DNA from: Spiroplasma endosymbiont of Cantharis nigra
GTDB taxonomy: Bacteria; Bacillota_I; Bacilli_A; Mycoplasmatales; Mycoplasmataceae
Assembly: GCF_964019925.1 (NCBI RefSeq)
Contig: NZ_OZ026470.1
Coordinates: 682,001-746,000, forward strand
DNA: 64,000 nt
Direction of reading: 5' to 3'
Shown here: one piece after another, positions 30,637 through 49,923 of the stretch
Position numbering within the stretch: position 1 is the stretch's first letter
Layout: every line of letters starts with the position of its first letter
The notes under the pieces: generated by a model
What the model was told of the DNA's origin: nothing
The model's database searches: none
Seen by the model: only the letters and a program-made list of their open reading frames with translations
Translations under genes and position numbers: made by a program

Positions 30637-31740
30637 TTAACTGTTGATAATATCCATTTTTGTATATATTATACTGTTATAATCTCAACTCTTATTATTT
30701 GGTCCTCATATTTCAAATCCCCTATTATAATGACTTTCCTTATCTTTATTAGGATCTTCTAAGTCTATGATATGGTCAAAATAAAAATCTTTATAAGATG
30801 AATTTTCATATTTATAATTAAATTCAGAGGTATGAGATGAAACTTTACTTCTAATATATGAATTTAACGCATATTCAATTTCAGTATTTCTAACTTCTGT
30901 TTCTTCATCTTGCTTATAATCAATCTTTTGTTTAAATGTAAAATTAGCATTATATAATTTTAAATTTAGATGCTGATTTTTGCTATTTGCAATAATCTTG
31001 CCTTTTTCATTTACCACTTCTTCAATTAGTAAATCTGGAGAGTTTAGTTGACTACTATATTCTTCAAAAAATTGTTTCATTCAAGTGCTTAAATTACTTG
31101 TTACATACCCCACAAAGTAATCTATATATAATGAAATTAAACCAATATAAATATCTTCTCCTTTATTTGTTTTGATTTTTAGTACATCCTCTCATATCCT
31201 TGTACATGAAAATGTATAACCTGATATATGTCCTGATCCCAAAAATATTGAGAATGCATTTTTCTTTTTTAGATTCCAATGATTATCATTTGTCATTTCT
31301 GAACCAAATTCAATTTGAATATTATTATAAACATTTGAAAAAGCTTGTTTTACTTCATCTTCACTTTTACCAACATAAAATCCTGACATCAATTCTATTC
31401 CAAATGGTTTTTCTAAACTTGCATCCATTGGAAGTAAACTATCATATAAAAAATTAACATTATTATTATCTACATCATCTTTTTTAACGATTCTTTCATA
31501 TTTATTTCCATTACTTGAACCTGATCAAATCTTAAAGTGATCATCTTTTGATGATAACTCTAAGTCACCATTATCTAATTCATTAATTTCTAATGAACCA
31601 AATCTTTCTAAAATTTCTTCATCTGATCACTTAGTTTTCTCTTTTTCTGGGTCAGTTGTCCCTCCAAAACAAGATACTACTGTAAACGAACTTGAAGTTA
31701 CCAATGTTATTGAACCAAGTACTGCTAATAATTTTTTCAT
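30637..31740 (-). CDS. Surface lipoprotein
   Basis: A 367-aa protein with a mollicute lipoprotein signal: MKKLLAVLGSITLV, then SSSFTVVSC with the lipidated Cys near residue 24, followed by FGGTTDPEKEK. The mature part is hydrophilic, without membrane spans, and contains several UGA Trp. The signal resembles those of the lipoproteins at 46-50 kb, but the mature chain is unrelated as far as I can see. It is monocistronic, flanked by terminators. Function unknown. Confidence 0.88.
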
Positions 31741-37867: not shown

Positions 37868-39019
37868 CTATCTTGCAAAAAATTTATTTCATAAACCTAT
37901 AAATATTCAAAACATTATAAGAATAGTAAAATTAATAATATAGTATGTATTTTGATCTTTAGATATTGATAATATATTTATTACTAAAGTAGTAATAAAT
38001 ATTATCAATGGCACTATAAACGTTTCAATTGAGTTTATTAAATTGAATTTAGATTGTTCTAAAAGTTCTAAAAGACCACCAAATACATATGTTAATAACA
38101 TTGTTGAAAATACAATATATAAAATACTTTTTAATAGATTAAGAAGCTCTGAATTATATCAAGCTGGCTCTTCTGAACCATTATTTGTTGATACATCTGG
38201 AAAGAAAATAACATTAAGTATAATATTTGCAAATATTATTGAAATAATTACGTAATAAACTAGTAGATGCAACCAATATATTTTAATATTCAATTTTTTT
38301 GAAGAAACAATAATTGAGATATTGTAATGAATCATAGCGACTATTAACATTGCTAATGCAAAACCAGCAAAAAAGTAATTGTTTATTTTAATACTATTTA
38401 AAGACATTATAACTCCGGCAATTACAAAAATAGTCATATTTAATAAAAATGCCATAAATAAAGAATTTTTAAATTTAGAAATATATAAGCTAGATATTTT
38501 TCATCTACTTGCATGACTATTATCTAAATTATTTAGAGCTAAATTATACTTAATTGAATCTCAACTTGTATTTGTATAATAAGCTTCTGACATTTTTAAT
38601 TCTTGTAATCCCCTTTGATTTTTAAGTACTCTTTCTCTTTCAATATTAAAAGTTTCTTTGACATTATTTGAAATTACTTCTATTGCCTCTGAAAATACTT
38701 TTATATCCTTTTCTAATAATAAGTTATTTGCTAATTTATCAATAAAATCTGATAAATAATTTGGTATATAACTAATAGATTTAAAATCCTTTAAAGCTTT
38801 TTTAGCTCCATTTAAATCATTTGCTGCAATAATTTTTTTTAAATTATCAATATAAATAATAGTATTTTCAAATTGAAAAAGAATATTATCTCTCAAATTT
38901 TTTCTATAAGTTTTAAGATTTACAAATCTTGAAAATAATAGACTTTTAATTGCTCCATAAATAATTGTAAATATTGTACCTAAAAGAATTAATTTAAAAG
39001 GATCAAATAATTGAAACAT
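37868..39019 (-). CDS. Multi-pass membrane protein with cytosolic helical domain
   Basis: A 383-aa protein. One N-terminal membrane helix (about 9-27), a soluble helical segment (about 35-155), then roughly six hydrophobic segments from about residue 185 to the end, with a polar loop (PDVSTNNGSEEPAWYNSE) between. ATG at 39017-39019 follows AAGGAG. Several UGA Trp codons. No family recognised. A stretch of 87 nt with no gene separates it from the 46-aa gene. Confidence 0.78.
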
Positions 39020-39148
39020 CAATTCTCCTTCACCTTTATCCTTTAAATTATTAACTCAAGCACTATAAAAATAATACATAAAAAATAAAAAACATATAAA
39101 AACTAACTGTATACTAAATTTTTTAATAAAATCACCTATATTCTCTTG

Positions 39149-40005: not shown

Positions 40006-40082
40006 TGGCGCCCACGAGAAGATTCGAACTTCTGACCCTACGCTTAGAAGGCGCATGCTCTATCCTACTGAGCTACGTGGGC
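40006..40082 (-). tRNA. tRNA-Arg (anticodon UCU)
   Basis: A 77-nt cloverleaf: acceptor GCCCACG / CGTGGGC, D-arm GCTC…GAGC, anticodon stem TGCGC / GCGTA with loop CTTCTAA (anticodon UCU, reads AGA/AGG), T-arm with TTCGAAT loop, and genome-encoded CCA. It is the only tRNA gene in the window and is followed by its own terminator. Confidence 0.97.
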
Positions 40083-40183: not shown

Positions 40184-41653
40184 TTATTTTGCCTTTTTAC
40201 CAAATTTATTAGATTTATGAGTTTTTTTATTTTTTATAGGTAGATTTTGTTTTTTAGAAAATCATTTACCTAAATATTTTAATTGTAGTTTATCTCAAAA
40301 TATTAAAACTAGACTAAATAAAATATTGATATATAAAGTTAAACAACCAGAGTAATAATTTGATATTATTTTTCAATTATTCTCATTTTGAAAACCATAT
40401 ACAATAAAAATAGACGTTAAAAATGTATTAAAAGGTAATAAAAACATTATTGAGTTTTTTAAATTTATACTTATTAAATGCTTATATAATAATTCCGGTT
40501 CGAAACCTTTTGTTACATTTAAAAAAGGAGCTAAATTAATTCTATTTTCAGACAAATAAAACGCTTCTAAAAATGAACTCTTTAGAATAAAGAATTTAAT
40601 AGCATAGCTATTATTTTTTTTAAACTTATTAATATTAGTATCAATATCTTTTAAAACCTTAAAATTAATATTATAGATTTTTCATTCTGTATACGCATAA
40701 TTAATAGAAGATATAAGCATTCCTCCAGTAATAGCATGCAATAAGATAATAATTAATAGTTCAAAGTTAGAAGAGAAATCCATATTAAGACTAGTAAATA
40801 AAAAGTCAAAATTATTATAATCTGTAGAATTTGAGAAATCTTTTAGACTTAAAGTAGTTATCACATTACCAATTAAAAATATTAAAGTTGATATTTTTAG
40901 ATTAATTGAAATGATTAATAATATAATAAAAATCAATAATGGAAGTAATAAAATGACTACTTTCCATTTTTTAATATATATAACATTTGAAAAAGATGCT
41001 AGTTTTTCATGTCCTAGAAAAAAGAATAGTAAAATAGAAATTACTAATATAGGTAATATTATTTTTAATAAAATTACCATTATTGTTGAGTTTAACTCTT
41101 CAATTCTATGTCTTTGTTCATTTAAATTATTTAAAACACCATAGATTATTTCAATTAAACATATTGAAGATACTAATGAACCATAAATCATTCATTTTGA
41201 AGATATGTTTAAAAACTGAATCGGATAAATAAATATTAAAGGTATTAATACCAATCTAGCAAATTTATTTGGAAGAAATAACCCTATTGTAAAAGAAGCA
41301 ATAAAACAAAAGCCAACAATAAATGATGGATGAACTACACTAAAAATAATATTTCAAAATGAATATATAGTATAGTTACTAATCATTAAATATGCTGAGA
41401 ATATCAGTAAAGTAATTTCTATTACATAATAATTCCTGATTTCATTTAAGCTATTCTTGGAAATGTTAATATACTTTAAAATACTACCTAAAATTAATAA
41501 CATTATAAATAAAATTATTAAAGGAATATTAATATTATTAATAATATTCCCTAAAAATATTAAGGAAAATATTCAAATAGTACTAATTAAAATTATTATA
41601 GATGACCTTATTACTTTTTGATTATCATATTTATTTTTTTTAATAGTTTTCAT
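40184..41653 (-). CDS. Polytopic membrane protein of the surface-protein locus
   Basis: A 489-aa protein with about 10-11 hydrophobic segments covering nearly its whole length, for example IRSSIIILISTIWIFSLIFL near the start, and a Lys-rich cytosolic tail (KKNKKTHKSNKFGKKAK). Most Trp are UGA. ATG immediately follows the stop of the 694-aa gene (TAG-ATG), so it is the last member of a coupled unit: lipoprotein, 917 aa, 694 aa, this protein. No transporter family is recognised; a secretion, assembly or anchoring role for its partners is inference. Confidence 0.8.
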
Positions 41654-43738
41654 CTATTGAAGAATTTCTTCTACAATTTTCTTAAGTTCATAATCATTTC
41701 TAAAAGTATAAACTTTACTATTACCATCTTTATCAATATTTGTGTACATATATATATTAATTAACTCATTTGAATATTGTGTAGAGTGTGAAATACCTTC
41801 CATAACAGCTTCAAGAGCTTTTAGATAACTATAAAAGTAAATTTTTCCTCCAACAGAATTTATTGAGCTTATACCATAAATTGTATAAACACCATCTTGA
41901 ACAATTTCACTATATGACCTTGGTTGACCATTTCATGAGTCTATTTCTTTTTTATTAATAAATTTACTTGTTAAATTTACTTTTTTTCTCATTGCTTTTA
42001 TTGCTTCATCACCTGATTCTGCAGAAGATTCAAAGTTTCCAAAAACATCATATGCAAAATATCTATTTAAAAGAATTGCTGATTCATACTCAAACATTTT
42101 TCTTCTTGCTTCTGCCTCTGTTGCTGATAAAACTAGTCCATCTTGTGAAGAGATATCTTGTTGATCAATATGTGTATACATTAATCTAACATCCATATCT
42201 CCATATAGGAAAGTATAGTTTTCCACTTGCTCTTTTGTAGCTCAAAAATCATCTCTAATTTTATAAACTATTTCATTATTTTCTATTCTAGTTTCACCAT
42301 TTAAGATATCATGTTTATTCTTTTGATGATAATTATATTGGCTTTCATAAAATGAATATTTTTCTCCTTGTTGACCATTTACGTCATATAAATAGTCTTT
42401 TGCTACATTGTACTTATTCATTGGTCTATTAACATCGCTAATATTAGTTTCATTATTTATTTCTTCTGGTATGTCTTTAAATAATTTTTTTATTTTAAAA
42501 TCATTATATCAAATTTTATATAAATCATTCACTTCCTGCGTTGATAAATCCTGATAATTTGAAACAATTCTAGTTAATTTAATGTCTGAAAGTAGGTTTT
42601 TATTATTAAAATCTGCAAATAGTTTCACGTTTGTTTGTCCAAGTTCTTCAACTGATTGAAGACTAAAATTTACATTTGCGGGATTCTTTTTTTTACCTTT
42701 CTTTGTTGGATAATATTCTATTTTTGAGAATTTTTTATTTACTTTCTTATCAATACCTGGCTTTTCAAAATAATAATGATATCTTTTACCTTTATTTTTT
42801 TCATTTACTTCTCTTCAATTGTTTTTATTTATTAAAATTTCTCTAGTGATTGATGAATCATCAAACTTAATATTTTGTCCTTCAGATGAAGTAATAGATT
42901 CACTTCCATCATTATAATGAATTTTAAAATCAATTCCTTTTGTTGTAGTAAATCTAAATCACTTTTCAACATCAAGATTGATAAAGTTTTCATAATTTAA
43001 ATCATTTTCATCTAAAGAGTTTTTTGATTTTGTTCAAGGAGTTCTTAAAGTTGCTTCAATTGTATCTTGTATTGTTTTTTTAGTTCCATATAAAACATTT
43101 TGTCCTGTAATTTCACTTGCAGAAACTCTATAGCCTTCTTTTAAAATATTTTTTAAAGCACTTTCATCTTCCTTATTAAATACATTATAATAGCGTCCAT
43201 TTATATAGTAGTATAAAGATTTATGTAATCCACCTTGATAAACATAATCATTTTTGGCCTCTTCTGGAGAATCGAATCAATTTAAGTTATCATAGCTATA
43301 CTTATGGGTAACAGAGCCTCCATTTACGTAAGTACTTAAAGCTGCTTCCTTATTTATAGAAACATTACCAAAAGCATCTCTATAAATTCTTTGAAAATTT
43401 TCTTGTTCTAAATCATAAATTTTTGTTTCATCTAGTATTCCATTTCCGGCATCTTTAATAATTTTATTTGGATTAGAACTAGTTTGAAATTCTTTAATAT
43501 TTTCCATTTCAGTTAAGTATAAATAAAGTTCATCTTCGCTATAAAAATCTAATCCATCAATAGATCATTTTTCAATTTGATCAACAGGTTTTGCATTATC
43601 TTTAATACTATTATAAAGATTTTCAAATTCAATAGAATTTTCTATTGAATTTAAAGTGGTACTATAGCCAACCGCTGTTAAAGGAGTTGCAACCATATTT
43701 AAGCTTGAGAAAGCTAATACTGCTTTTAAACCAATCAT
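41654..43738 (-). CDS. Large surface protein with repeated beta-hairpin/helix-like modules (694 aa)
   Basis: Begins with a hydrophobic segment (IGLKAVLAFSSLNMVATPLTAVGY) without a lipobox Cys, so it is a signal anchor or cleaved signal. The remaining 660 residues are hydrophilic and contain many degenerate units of about 25-35 residues: an aromatic-rich strand, D/N-G or similar, Phe/Tyr, then a Ser/Thr-led helix with Glu-Ala and aromatic residues (WSIDGLDFYSEDELYLYL, YRDAFGNVSINKEAALSTYV, WFDSPEEAKNDYV, YDVFGNFESSAESGDEAIKAM). Start: ATG at 43736-43738 with AGGTG 6 nt upstream; GTG at 43747 is the alternative. It follows the 917-aa gene directly. Function unknown. Confidence 0.78.
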
Positions 43739-43747
43739 TTTAATCAC

Positions 43748-46501
43748 CTACCCCTTTACTTCTTTTGTATTTTTTGAAACTCATTGATAAAAGACAGCTT
43801 CACTTGTAAATAACATTCCTCTAAAACTTATTTCGTAATAGACTGAAGTATCTGTTTTTCTTTTTATGTCTGAATTATTAAAAATATAGTACAATGCATC
43901 ATTATAAGTAGCAAAATAACGATTTTTACCTTTAAAATATACTTTAAATATTGAGTAATTTATCCCACTATATTCTTCTAATTCATTATAATATGTTGTT
44001 TTAATTAAATCAGAATTTAATATTGTTTTGCTTTCTATTTTATTTTCTAAAAATTTTTTTTGCTGTTCTCAAGCTTGGTTTAAAGTATCATAATAATAAC
44101 TCATTCCAGAATTAGTTATTTTATATTTAGTAACAAATTTCTTATTAGTTATATTTTGACTCATACTGTTTAATGCATCAGCTTTATTTTGAAAGAAATT
44201 ACCAAAACCATCACTATATTGTTTAACAGACTTCGAAGCAAAATATTTATCAAATATTTTTAATTTAAATTCTTCAAACTGTGTAATAAATTGGTATTCC
44301 ATTTCATTTTCATTGTCACTGCTATTATCAATTTTCACTTCAAACTCTTCTTGTTGAGACATTACATTTATATATAACATGTTTGTATCACTAAATTTTA
44401 AAGGGTTTGAAACTATATAATTTTTCAAATATTCCTCTGCTTTTGCTATTCCAGTGAATAAACTTCCATAAACAATATAATAACCATCTTCATTTGGGTT
44501 TACTGTTTTATCTGGCTCTGGCATAAATGCTGAATCAGTTTGAATTAATGGAACTTGATTAATATTTTTCTTAAAATCATCATTATCTATTTCAATTCCA
44601 AGAAGTGGTATTTTAAAACCTATTACTTGATATTTCAATACTTGTCCATTTCCTAAATCATTTTCATATGTTCTATATGACAAGAATGAGACTATATTTC
44701 CTATATCTCAAACGGCTTTTGCCACATTAAAACCAGCTAAAGCTTTGTCAAAACCCTTCATAGGTGATATTGTATTATTATCATTTTTTTTAAATTTAAC
44801 TTCTCCTGTTTTTGAGTCTACTTTTGCAAGATCATATTTTTTTATTAATTCATCTTGATATTGTTTTTTTTCTTTTTCAGAACTAAACTTAGTTTTTTCA
44901 AATTGATATAATGCATTATCTAAACTTAGTTTTTTAATTTCTTCACTTGTTCTAGAAATATCTTTTTTAAGTTCATTAATTTTATCAAAATCTCCAAATA
45001 CTATATCTCCAACATCATTTAATGCCATTAATAATCCATCCATACCAACTAGTTTACTTGGAGAAGTATATTGGAATTTTGAGGGATTTAAAAATAAATC
45101 TAGTATATCTGAAAAATTTAATATGTCTTCTTTTCTTGTTGTTTCTAATGTTTCTTCAATAAATAGACTATCTAAAAATTCTTCATCAACAACAGTAGTA
45201 GTTGATTCAATTAGCTCTCTTAAAGTCTGTTTTAAAAAATTAATTAAATCTAATACTTTTTGTTCTTTACCATTATTATTTCTTGTAATTATGAAAAGAT
45301 ATAAGTTCTTTAAAAAAACTAAGTTTTTTTCAAAAACAGGTAAGTCGTCAACAGATGATAAATTAGTTTGTATTTTTTTATAATCAAATGAACCCGATTT
45401 AGTTATATCTTCTCCATAAATTCTATTAAATAATCTTTCAAGAGTTTCCTCTTTCTGATTAATTTCACTTACAAACAAGTCCTCCAAATTTCATTCCTTA
45501 TTTACTTTTTTTTCAGTTAAATTTGCAGAAGCTTTAATAAAAGATGAAATACCCATCAATGGTGCCAATAAAGCATTCATTCCTTTTGTTTCAACTCTAT
45601 TTCAACCAGTATATAATTGAGTCATAAATTGAGAAGTACTTAAATTAGACTCAATATACTGAGGTCCTGAAAATGTTCCTGATAGACCATTTGAATCAAA
45701 ATTTAATCAATAAGCATTTTTAATTGGTTTAAATGGTTGAATTTTTTCTTTATCTAAATTTGTTAGATTTAAATTTGATATATTTGGTATATCATTAGGC
45801 GATCAATAAAATCCATTATGCTCATATCTAGTATCAGATGTTTGACCAATTCATTGTAAAACTTGTTCTTTTGTCATGTCTAAACCAGATATATTATATT
45901 TATCTGTTTGCTCTCCAGACTCAATTTGCTTTCTTATAACACTTTCATAATAGGCAATTGCGTCATTTTGATTAGAGAATTCTATATTCTCTTCTCCGTT
46001 TAAATTATTGATCATATATTGTTTTTTAATATCTTGAAATGTATCAATAGCTTCATTTTTATTTGTATAAGCTCTATTATCGCTTCCCTTATAAATTTCT
46101 ATTAATTTTTCATTTTCATTTGTTATAACATTATCAGATAACTGATTAGAAGTGTCAATTATATTATTATTAATATTTTTATAAGTTTTATACTCTTTAA
46201 TCGAGTATTTCTTTTCTAAATCCTTTGTTATATCATATAAACTATCAACAGCATAAGGCTTGGAATCATATAAATAAAAATCGTGTGCCGTTTCTTTTGA
46301 AGTATAATTAATATTATTATCAATATACTCATTTAATTCCTCTTTTGTATTAAATGTTTTACCATCAAAAACATAGTGAGAAAAATTATTATTATAACTA
46401 TTTGTTATAGTCAAAATTCCTATAAGTGATGTTGATATTACTAAAGATGATCCAGCAATTAATGATAATATAGTTTTTTTGCTCTTAAATATCTTTTTCA
46501 T
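43748..46501 (-). CDS. Large membrane-anchored surface protein with the same module family (917 aa)
   Basis: An N-terminal transmembrane helix (about 11-31, TILSLIAGSSLVISTSLIGI) and no lipobox. At least eight degenerate modules are visible, e.g. YVFDGKTFNTKEELNEYI, YLYDSKPYAVDSLYDITKD, IYKGSDNRAYTNKNEAIDTF, IVYGSLFTGIAKAEEYL, YSDGFGNFFQNKADALNSM and, at the very end, YYEISFRGMLFTSEAVFYQW. A central region (about 330-600) is helical and different. Many UGA Trp codons; about 2.7 kb open. It starts 3 nt after the stop of lipoprotein copy 1. Truncated relics of its 5' end lie after the other two lipoprotein copies. Confidence 0.82.
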
Positions 46502-46504
46502 TTA

Positions 46505-47365
46505 TTATTTTTTATACAAACGAGTATTTATTTCTTTTTCTAAAAAAATACTTTTATTGTCTTTCAATGAGATTACTAAGTTTAAACTATATAAATCATA
46601 ATACTTATCATTTTCATCTAATAAATTAAAATTTACAACATTAATATTTACTAAATTTAATATCGATATTTTTTGATCATTCTCATCTTTTTTTATACTT
46701 ATTTCAAGTTCTTTTGTAAGTTCATCAAGTTTATCTTGTTTTTCTTTAAGTTGATTTAATTTATCAGTAGTTACTTTTATATTCAAACTCTGAAATATAT
46801 CTACTTCCTTAAATCATGATGTACTCATTCCTTTGTTATTTTTATAGAAATTTTTATTTATAGTTGAATTAAAAAAATTGTCTAAATATTTTTCATTTTC
46901 ATATTTTTGTGTTTGAGTGAAATTGAATTTAAAATTTAGTCAGTCATTTTTTGCCTCATTAAATTCGTTATTACTTCTATATGTAAAAGATATGTCAAAC
47001 GTATATTTAACATTATTTTTTATTTCATTAATTTCTTGATTTAATGTTTCTGCTGTTGCATGAATAAAAGAATAATCTTTATAGTTAAATTTCTCATTAA
47101 TTAAATCATAAAACTGTTCCAAAGCTAAATGTCCTAAAATTGAACTTGTCCCCATTATTCCATCATTTATTTTATATCCTTCTTCAAATATAAATGGCCC
47201 TTCATAATTAATTTCACCAATTTCATTGACAAATTCTTTCAATAATTCATCTGTTAAATCTTTTTTAATCACAGGATCTGGTCCTGGGTTATTACATGCT
47301 ATAACACTAAAAGATGAAGATGCAACTAAAGTTACAGTTCCTAAAATTGTTAATAATTTTCTCAT
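46505..47365 (-). CDS. Lipoprotein, tandem family copy 1
   Basis: A 286-aa lipoprotein. Signal MRKLLTILGTVTLV with lipobox SVIAC, then CNNPGPDPVIKKDLTDELL. The mature chain contains the conserved EGPFIFEEGY and LGHLALEQFYDLINE blocks, and the C-terminal third is a coiled coil ending LFLEKEINTRL-like. It is the copy directly upstream of the intact 917-aa gene. ATG at 47363-47365 follows two AAAGGAAA tracts; a TATAAT-type promoter lies about 20-35 nt further up. Copies 2 and 3 are closely similar in the first 60 residues and diverge more toward the end. Confidence 0.9.
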
Positions 47366-47452
47366 TGTTTTCCTTTTCCTTTTCAAAAATATTATATTAT
47401 ATAAATTTAAATAATTTAAATTTGTTTTTTATTTTTTCCTTTAATTTAAAAA
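47366..47452 (-). promoter_or_regulatory. Leader and promoter region of lipoprotein copy 1
   Basis: An AT-rich stretch with overlapping TATAAT/TAATAT hexamers at roughly 47390-47402 and a purine-rich ribosome site. The same leader sequence precedes copies 2 and 3, so all three should be transcribed from the same kind of promoter. Confidence 0.5.
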
Positions 47453-47925: not shown

Positions 47926-48789
47926 TTATATTACTTTTTTCAATAATGTATTTATTTCTTTTTCTAAATAAATGTCCTTATTGTCTTTCATTGAAATTCT
48001 TAAATTTAAACTATATAAATCACGACTTTCATTATATTCATCTAATAAATTAACATCTACAACATTAATATCTACTAAATTTAATATTGACTTTTCTTGT
48101 GTTTTTTTATACCTTTTAATATTATCTTCAATCTCTTTTTTAATCTTGTCAAGTTTTAATTGTTGGTCAACAATCTCATTTAATTCGCTAGTAGTTACTT
48201 TCATAGATAGAATATTAAATATATTTGTTTTTTCAAAACGAGTAGTTGTCATACCTTTATTATTTTTATAGAGTTCTTGATTAATTATTGAATTAAATCA
48301 TACATCCAAATATTGTTTATTATTATACTGCTCTGTTTGAGTAAAATTAAACTTAAATGTAATTCCTCCATTTTTAAATTCATTAAATTCATTATTACTT
48401 CTAAATCTAAAAAATGCTTCAAAGCTATATTTAACATTATTACTGATTTCAGTCATTTCTTGACTTATTATTGTGGTTGAACCATGAATAAAAGAATAAC
48501 CTTTATAGTTAAAATTCTCATTAATTAAAACATAAAACTGTTCCAAAGCTAAATGTCCTATAATTGATTCCGTACCAATTATTTCATCATTTATTTGATA
48601 TCCTTCTTCAAATATAAATGGCCCTTCATAATTAATTTCACCAATTTCATTGACAAATTCTTTCAATAATTCATCTGTTAAATCTTGTTTAATCACAGGA
48701 TCTGGTCCTGGGTTATTACATGCTATAACACTAGAAGATGAATATGCAACTAAAGTTACAGCTCCTAAAATTGTTAATAATTTTCTCAT
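47926..48789 (-). CDS. Lipoprotein, tandem family copy 2
   Basis: A 287-aa paralogue of copy 1. Signal MRKLLTILGAVTLVAYSSSS, lipobox SVIAC, then CNNPGPDPVIKQDLTDELL. It shares EGPFIFEEGY, LEQFY, FKFNFTQTEQY and the C-terminal coiled coil; a UGA Trp lies at residue 164. Its mature sequence differs in short patches (GTESIIGHL, GSTTIISQEMTEI) against a conserved frame, as expected for diverging surface antigens. It is followed at once by the pseudogene fragment. Confidence 0.9.
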
Positions 48790-48868: not shown

Positions 48869-48889
48869 ACCAGTAGTAAAACTACTGGT
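48869..48889 (-). terminator. Terminator between duplicated units (copy 3 side)
   Basis: Perfect 9-bp stem ACCAGTAGT / ACTACTGGT with AAA loop and T-run on the minus strand; a duplicate of the hairpin at 47453. Confidence 0.85.
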
Positions 48890-48929
48890 AAATTTAGGTT
48901 ACATTTTTCTGTTATTTTATATTAAATTT

Positions 48930-49059
48930 TTTACCATAGAGTATATAATTAGAAAAATTATTATTATACTTAAAAGTCCCATAAATTATATTGATATTAC
49001 TAAAGAAGACCAACAATTAATGACAATATAGTCTTTTTACTCTTAAATAATTTTTTCAC
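48930..49059 (-). pseudogene. Decayed 5' fragment of a 917-aa-type gene (after lipoprotein copy 3)
   Basis: GTG at 49057-49059 opens VKKLFKSKKTILSLIVG; one missing base then breaks the frame, after which SLVISI-stop and KYNNNFSNY can be read in shifted frames. It shares the ISI-stop lesion with the fragment at 47797-47924, so both relics descend from one already damaged copy. Confidence 0.85.
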
Positions 49060-49065
49060 TTTATA

Positions 49066-49923
49066 TTACTTTTTTAATAATGTATCTATTTGAGTTTTCA
49101 GAAATACATTTTGATCATCCTTCATTGAGATTAATAAATCTAGACTATATTTATTTTTATACTCATTATACTCACCAAGTAATTCAAAATCTGCTACATT
49201 AATATTTATTAAATTTAATATTGATTTCTCTCTTACTTTCTCATCAATCTTAATTGCATTTTCAAGTTCCTTTGTAAGCACATCAAGTTCCTTTTCTTTA
49301 TCATTAATTTGATTTAACTGTTCAGTAGTTAACTCAATATCCAAGTGATGAAAATTATTTATATTTTCAAGTTTAGATGTACTCATTCCTTTATTATTTT
49401 TATAGAAATCTTGATTAATTACTGAATTAAATCATACATCCAAATATTGCTTACTATTATATTGTTCTGTTTGAATGAAATTGAATTTAAACTTAATTCC
49501 TCCATTATCAAATTCATTAAATTTACCATTACTTCGATATCTAAAAAATACCTCAAACGTATATTTAACATTATTTTTTATTTCATTAATTTCTTGATTT
49601 AATGTTTTCGCTGTTCCATGAATAAAAGAATAGCCTTTATAATTAAACTTCTCATTAATTAAATCATAAAACTGTTCTAAAGCTAAATGTCCTAAAATTG
49701 AACTTGTTCCCAGTATATTATTGTTTATTTCATATCCTTCTTCAAATATAAATGGACCTTCATAATTAATTTCACCAATTTCATTGACAAATTCTTTCAA
49801 TAATTCATCTGTTAAATCTTGTTTAATCACAGGATCTGGTCCTGGATTATTACAAGCTATGACACTAAAAGATGAAGATGTAACTAAAGTTACAGCTCCC
49901 AAAATTGTTAATAATTTTCTCAT
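49066..49923 (-). CDS. Lipoprotein, tandem family copy 3
   Basis: A 285-aa paralogue. Signal MRKLLTILGAVTLVTSSSFS, lipobox SVIAC, then CNNPGPDPVIKQDLTDELL; conserved EGPFIFEEGYEIN, LGHLALEQFYDLINEKFNYKGY; C-terminal coiled coil (NQINDKEKELDVLTKELENAI). A UGA Trp lies at residue 164, as in copy 2. The same promoter/leader block is upstream (TATAAT near 49953). First unit of the array in transcription order. Confidence 0.9.

Follow-up and report, generated by a model that had tools for sequence, protein, structure and literature searches.

A tightly packed minus-strand operon in a Spiroplasma chromosome appears to encode a cell-surface complex for contact with the host, adhesin-like in character, in which two related proteins would provide a constant scaffold and other parts a changing tip; judging from the sequences, we give this reading a probability of roughly 0.55. 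The unit character of the locus and the surface location of its products are well supported, the linkage of the genes points to a multi-protein complex, and the adhesin-like role is what we infer from the features described below. The operon lies within a 64,000-nucleotide stretch (the window) of the 1.24 Mb genome of the Spiroplasma endosymbiont of Cantharis nigra (family Spiroplasmataceae), in which open reading frames were read with TGA as tryptophan. Spiroplasmas are wall-less bacteria living in arthropods, and the locus may bear on how they recognise arthropod tissue. Reports of their best-studied adhesins, the ScARPs and the P58/P123 set, come mainly from the Citri clade. The locus described here is widespread in the family, is present in multiple copies in several species and has conserved borders, which makes it a concrete target for knock-out and structural work; it is moreover a clear example of a putative scaffold pair that stays constant while its lipoprotein partners differ between lineages and are unrelated to one another.

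The four genes follow one another in the order LP, A, B, M, with gaps of 3 nt between LP and A and 0 nt at both the A-B and B-M junctions:

46505–47386, minus strand: LP copy 3, of LP family I, paired with the intact A; start probably the ATG at 47365
43748–46501, minus strand: protein A, 917 aa; N-terminal membrane anchor at residues 14–32
41654–43747, minus strand: protein B, 697 aa from GTG or 694 aa from ATG at 43738; N-terminal leader; by sequence a paralogue of A
40184–41653, minus strand: protein M, 489 aa; 11 hydrophobic segments and a basic C-terminal tail

The open reading frame coordinates agree with the sizes and spacings given in an initial annotation for the 917-aa, 694-aa and 489-aa genes and the lipoprotein gene before them; the alternative ATG of B is three codons inside its GTG start. 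Protein A has a single hydrophobic segment (residues 14–32) and lacks a C-terminal helix, and B has a weak N-terminal hydrophobic leader that falls under the threshold used, with no segment above it. The 11 hydrophobic segments counted in M bear out its earlier description as almost entirely membrane, and only two residues, W100 and W464, are invariant in its family. LP copy 3 has an LP_plasma signal (5e-10), and the window LP scores 39.7 bits against the mollicute lipoprotein signal domain NF038029 (cut-off 24). It falls short of the MOLPALP lipoproteins (TIGR04547), for which it reaches 31 bits against a curated cut-off of 65 and only over the signal-peptide region (8–33). Directly behind the operon is a tRNA-Arg(TCT) gene (window 40006–40082), beyond which are genes reading like rpsP, rimM and trmD; the locus is thus among core genes, with no obvious mobile element. 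Also downstream is a gene for a polytopic protein of 403 aa with 7 hydrophobic segments (window 37868–39079), relatives of which are near two other A loci (L048 and L064).

The initial annotation knew of no named family that fits these proteins, and this holds in the libraries searched here: Pfam gave no above-chance match for any of the three families, and window A had none in NCBIfam or the PDB sequences either. Window A, B and M have no match in NCBIfam, and in Pfam there is one chance-level match to A (E 0.53, far under the cut-off). A search of PDB sequences with window A as a single sequence gave no match, and the A and B family profiles gave only chance-level matches to PDB chain sequences; the middle of A is helical-looking by sequence, and its sole PDB profile matches are chance-level coiled coils. 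When every member of the A, B and M alignments was compared with Pfam the matches were scattered and at chance level; ABC_toxin_N (0.0029, one member), IseA (0.009, two members) and DUF1411 (one member) were considered and judged to be chance over 34 or 29 members. NCBIfam applied to the A family finds essentially lipoprotein signals, in few members. Searches of A, B and M with PHROGs and PADLOC gave nothing beyond one weak phrog match to A, there is no match to A or B in the plasmid collection, and none in the phage collection or viral contigs. A literature search that left most subscription journals outside its scope found no description of the locus.

Both A and B carry a repeated module of ~25–35 residues, arranged in two blocks, one toward either end of each protein:

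45779–46378, minus strand: N-terminal module block of A, residues 42–241 (hhalign, HMM, unit pairing)
43769–44491, minus strand: C-terminal module block of A, residues 671–911 (hhalign, HMM, unit pairing)
43142–43573, minus strand: N-terminal module block of B, residues 59–202 (hhalign, unit pairing)
41792–42280, minus strand: C-terminal module block of B, residues 490–652 (hhalign, unit pairing; first module alone folded with fair confidence)
43751–43966, minus strand: two-module piece of A, residues 846–917, predicted by AlphaFold2 as (beta-beta-alpha-beta) x2

Family profiles of 34 A and 29 B sequences were each compared with themselves by hhalign without supervision, and the best off-diagonal matches score 37.8 in A and 30.3 in B, against 21.9 at most for column-shuffled profiles. 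The A and B profiles also match one another over their N-terminal 140–157 residues (score 93.5, E 5e-10), with further, weaker matches between the C-terminal blocks, and by this comparison A and B are evidently paralogues. Iterated HMMs recruited units elsewhere in window A and B from two of four module seeds, and none of the four seeds matched any reversed, shuffled or control open reading frame. Visual inspection gave 20 candidate units, of which 16 find a profile partner at a score >13; pairs of null slices score ≤10.8, though a single pairing of a candidate with a null slice scored 22. As the candidates were selected for their motif and that one null pairing scored high, we place the weight on the hhalign self-comparison and the iterated HMMs, which are the unbiased tests. 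Taken together, these comparisons make the initial count of at least fifteen units of 25–35 residues about right, and the internal repeat signal, the absence of which had been named as refuting the module, is present by profile comparison. The module appears to be a repeat family new to the libraries searched, none of which names it.

The structure prediction agrees with a recurring fold. AlphaFold2, given 15 modules from the window and S. poulsonii, models residues 846–917 of A with pLDDT 83.4 and pTM 0.69 (two of five models >80), as strands at 5–11 and 14–18, a helix at 21–30 and a strand at 32–37, all of which are then repeated. The beta-beta-alpha fold proposed earlier does recur in this model, and a third strand follows it, so that the predicted module is beta-beta-alpha-beta, slightly more than was claimed. 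A second prediction, of B residues 470–697 from five rows, has pLDDT 47.9 and is usable for the first module alone; the confident model thus spans two modules. A sceptical explanation of these observations is that AT-rich composition and a widespread strand-cap-helix motif mimic a repeat where there is none, and that the genes are unrelated neighbours. The motif (Phe, a Ser/Thr cap and a Glu-Ala helix) is indeed generic and the similarity of single sequences is low, but profiles that beat their shuffles, the zero matches among decoys, the confident two-module fold and a gene order conserved across several genera contradict this explanation, which we consider extremely improbable. We note that DUF1508/YegP, DUF2188 and the Arm-binding domains of tyrosine recombinases are also small sheet-then-helix units with a Phe-Ser/Thr-x-x-Glu-Ala helix cap. 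The modules have no Pfam match to any of these, and the likeness is likely to be a convergent local motif.

Of 248 genomes from the order, 24 carry B, as do 23 of 295 from the phylum; all are Spiroplasmataceae, and the gene occurs in 6 of the 120 phylum genera sampled. The A-B pair extends to five genera beyond the one holding S. poulsonii. We compared 40 neighbourhoods of 18 kb, together with a second copy in the window genome, with 40 control regions from the same genomes. A and B are adjacent and in the same order at ~35 loci, usually overlapping or ≤20 nt apart, and their distances correlate with r=0.95, which mostly reflects shared descent. A lipoprotein gene is immediately 5′ of A in 25 of 42 cases, either co-directional or divergent, and lipoprotein genes number 2.27 per 18 kb against 0.98 in the controls (p=1.5e-4), where the controls were at chosen positions and not matched for gene class. 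These lipoproteins are not one family, as we had considered, but three that do not recognise one another by profile comparison. On a quick tree of 34 B proteins, where group III alone fails to separate at a single branch, loci fall into four states by partner: M together with LP family I in one, LP families II and III in two others, and in the fourth a lipidated A with no LP gene directly before it. These four states need 3 changes on the tree, which is the minimum. Across 60 genomes of the family, M either follows a type I A-B pair at its 3′ end or is next to remnants of such an operon, two weak partial matches excepted, and three of the four lineages are without it. Gene order is thus kept in other species, which the initial annotation had named as supporting evidence, with the refinement that the constant core is the A-B pair: LP is interchangeable among three families with no relation to each other, and M belongs to a single one of the four lineages. 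As for the broader proposal of a dedicated surface assembly on an unrecognised module, it is supported by the lack of a family match, the reality of the repeat, its recurring fold and the conserved A-B order.

Several loci add detail to these neighbourhoods. The window genome itself carries two types: the locus described here and, at G000:C1:560783, an A-B pair followed by lipoproteins of 163 aa. In L059 and L067, of the lineage in which A itself is a lipoprotein, four tandem copies of a gene family of 350–390 aa (cluster g4) are downstream of B. The flanks of the A-B pair in L051 encode lipoproteins of ~600 aa with an inner part similar to the small LP family III (E 7e-10 by profile); these are apparently fused or extended forms of that family. 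B is broken in L043 (10503–13790) by two open reading frames that recur elsewhere and are insertion-element-like.

An uptake role might also be proposed, in which LP would bind a haemolymph ligand (lipid, sterol or protein), A-B would present it, and M would pass it on or anchor the complex. Uptake systems often combine a lipoprotein with a polytopic membrane protein, A-B and M are linked, and no adhesin domain was found. The conserved unit, however, is without an ATPase, M matches no transporter family and has just its two invariant residues (W100 and W464), three of the four lineages do without M, and the LP families are mutually unrelated; we regard uptake as unlikely.

The array to which the operon belongs is longer than first described. 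The interval 40184–46501 is correct for A, B and M, but the array runs to ~49.9 kb and includes two more LP genes (47926–48789 and 49066–49923) and two remnants of A that the initial annotation had missed:

49066–49923, minus strand: LP copy 1, a lipoprotein of 285 aa with lipobox ...SVIAC
48915–49016, minus strand: decayed A start behind LP copy 1, residues 20–53, 50% identity
48869–48889, minus strand: intrinsic-terminator-like hairpin behind the first A remnant; 3 such hairpins found in the region against 1.0 expected
47926–48789, minus strand: LP copy 2, a lipoprotein of 287 aa
47779–47943, minus strand: decayed A start behind LP copy 2, residues 1–53, 37% identity
47453–47473, minus strand: intrinsic-terminator-like hairpin, a near copy of that at 48869–48889
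47391–47420, minus strand: promoter-like site before LP copy 3, TTTAAA-18-TATAAT; a consensus match only, and such sites are not enriched regionally

LP copies 1 and 2 are each followed by a decayed A start and a terminator-like hairpin, from which we conclude that duplication of the LP-A junction gave rise to the array. This junction is, on the sequence pattern, the duplicating unit, and its copying has produced multiple LP genes beside a single intact A-B-M. The three window copies are 91–100% identical around the start codon and over the first ~80 codons, except for blocks of 78–86%, and 58–85% identical over most of the remainder after the first third. LP and a partial A are doubled in L037, L039, L043, L045 and L047 too. 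We considered whether the A remnants act as recombination donors in the style of MgPa repeats and rejected this for the window, since they are decayed. Elsewhere in the window, a 367-aa protein (30637–31740) matches LP with E 4.7e-6 and is possibly another lipoprotein with a common signal region.

That LP adjoins A and is duplicated along with pieces of it, and that the middle of A looks helical, would also suit secreted or contact-dependent antagonism, with the helical middle entering a target membrane and LP protecting the producer. We think this very unlikely, as there is no above-chance match to a toxin or defence family and the C-terminus of A is conserved rather than exchangeable.

Variation was measured in eight close pairs of loci, and these relatives place two hypervariable segments in the window proteins:

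45332–45514, minus strand: A equivalent of the hypervariable mid-segment, ~residues 330–390
42668–42940, minus strand: B equivalent of the hypervariable mid-segment, ~residues 270–360

Across the close pairs A and B both have conserved module blocks, and the segment of A near residues 330–390 is the one of lowest identity or close to it. In one pair it is 48% identical and most other parts are 85–97% identical; identity drops in B at ~270–360 as well, in several pairs. Whole-gene dN/dS is 0.06–0.29 for A and B and mostly 0.2–0.6 for LP, with single values to 1.1, and for other genes common to these neighbourhoods is mostly 0.02–0.2, with some faster. The LP values are below 1 in nearly all pairs and so do not demonstrate positive selection. 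A is split in four relatives, and phase variation by homopolymer slippage is not supported as the reason: a long homopolymer is inside the break region in L034 (A8) and at the edge of the examined stretch in L040 (A7), with none there in L038 or L056. The window operon has no homopolymer of ≥9.

The exposed variable segments would also fit evasion of phages or host defences. The locus could then be a surface coat with decoys as its variable parts, which would vary under pressure from these agents rather than through receptor binding, and both the concentration of variation in the mid-segments and LP and the recurrent duplication and decay of LP are in keeping with this. Conservation of the modules, the A-B pairing and the M linkage nonetheless implies a role for the unit beyond variation, LP dN/dS is mostly <1, and no phage link emerged from the phage collection, PHROGs or PADLOC. 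A decoy coat therefore seems improbable to us.

In the adhesin-like reading that we prefer, LP would be lipid-anchored outside the cell, A held by its uncleaved N-terminal helix, B exported, and M a polytopic base in the lineage with LP family I. Signal peptidase II is the only signal peptidase reported in the spiroplasma genomes examined (PMC9666726), and A thus probably retains its N-terminal helix as an anchor. An extracellular side for the proteins is suggested by the N-terminal leaders, the lipoprotein forms of A and a cysteine pair of the type CYxxxGxC, which is in 22 of 30 A proteins, window A being without it; the pair would fit an extracellular disulfide. Modules of A and B would pair into a stalk or platform as the constant extracellular scaffold, and the contact surface would comprise the variable mid-segments of A and B with the fast-evolving C-terminal part of LP, duplication of LP supplying alternative contact proteins. 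Contact with arthropod host cells or molecules is the most likely job of such a complex, although no binding domain of known function and no structure match was found, which, like the weak leader of B, counts against this reading. More tentatively, and at somewhat less than even odds, the locus may be a new surface machine of two paralogous beta-beta-alpha-beta scaffold proteins, for which lineages have recruited unrelated lipoprotein tips or which have themselves become lipidated, with the tip gene multiplied through duplication of the LP-A junction.

Comparison with characterised systems shows partial likenesses. The adhesins P140/P110 (MgpB/MgpC) of Mycoplasma genitalium and P1-P40/P90 of M. 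pneumoniae, which bind sialylated host receptors, are each two large, related, membrane-anchored surface proteins encoded in one operon, with variable segments on a conserved frame and partial gene copies in the genome. A and B resemble them as paired, mutually related surface proteins of one operon (0 nt, E 5e-10), but their profiles have no sequence match to the solved adhesin chains in the PDB, and the A remnants here are decayed, unlike the intact donors of P140/P110-type systems. To our knowledge neither of those systems has such modules, a lipoprotein partner or M. The MIB-MIP systems of ruminant mycoplasmas are also paired surface proteins with tandem duplications, from which A, B and M differ in that no member has a DUF31 or other above-chance Pfam match.

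Among spiroplasma proteins, ScARP/SARP1 of Spiroplasma citri are large surface proteins with sarpin repeats of 39–42 residues, and the repeat domain binds insect cells (PMC3485318, PMC2386487). The ScARPs are plasmid-borne, with 6–8 repeats toward the N-terminus and a membrane helix with a basic tail at the C-terminus (PMC2386487, PMC3485318). These descriptions of anchor and repeat layout set A-B apart from them: A has an N-terminal anchor and no C-terminal helix, is chromosomal, and has its modules dispersed at both ends, in two blocks of ~25–35 aa units rather than 6–8 sarpin repeats of 39–42 aa. The locus resembles the P58/P12/P54/P123/P18 adhesion-related cluster of the Citri clade in being a multi-gene Spiroplasma set, and is distinguished from it by distribution. 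That cluster is reported to be missing from S. eriocheiris and from every Chrysopicola- or Apis-clade genome complete at the time, and is known from the Citri clade and a recent recipient (PMC4607517), whereas A-B is found in six genera.

Among the loci found, S. poulsonii itself has only broken A-B copies. In MSRO_BK (L074 and L075) A is reduced to its C-terminal half and B is split in two, with a further piece from the C-terminus of B standing apart. These two loci were all that the contig pattern scan gave, probably owing to a Trp in one of its patterns, since Trp is mostly TGA-coded in these genomes. S. poulsonii is inherited through the egg, and its decayed copies fit a function needed in horizontal colonisation. 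The window genome has a further B remnant at G000:C1:869977–870611, which covers profile residues 486–704 in two pieces with stops and indicates that at least one more copy has been lost from this genome.
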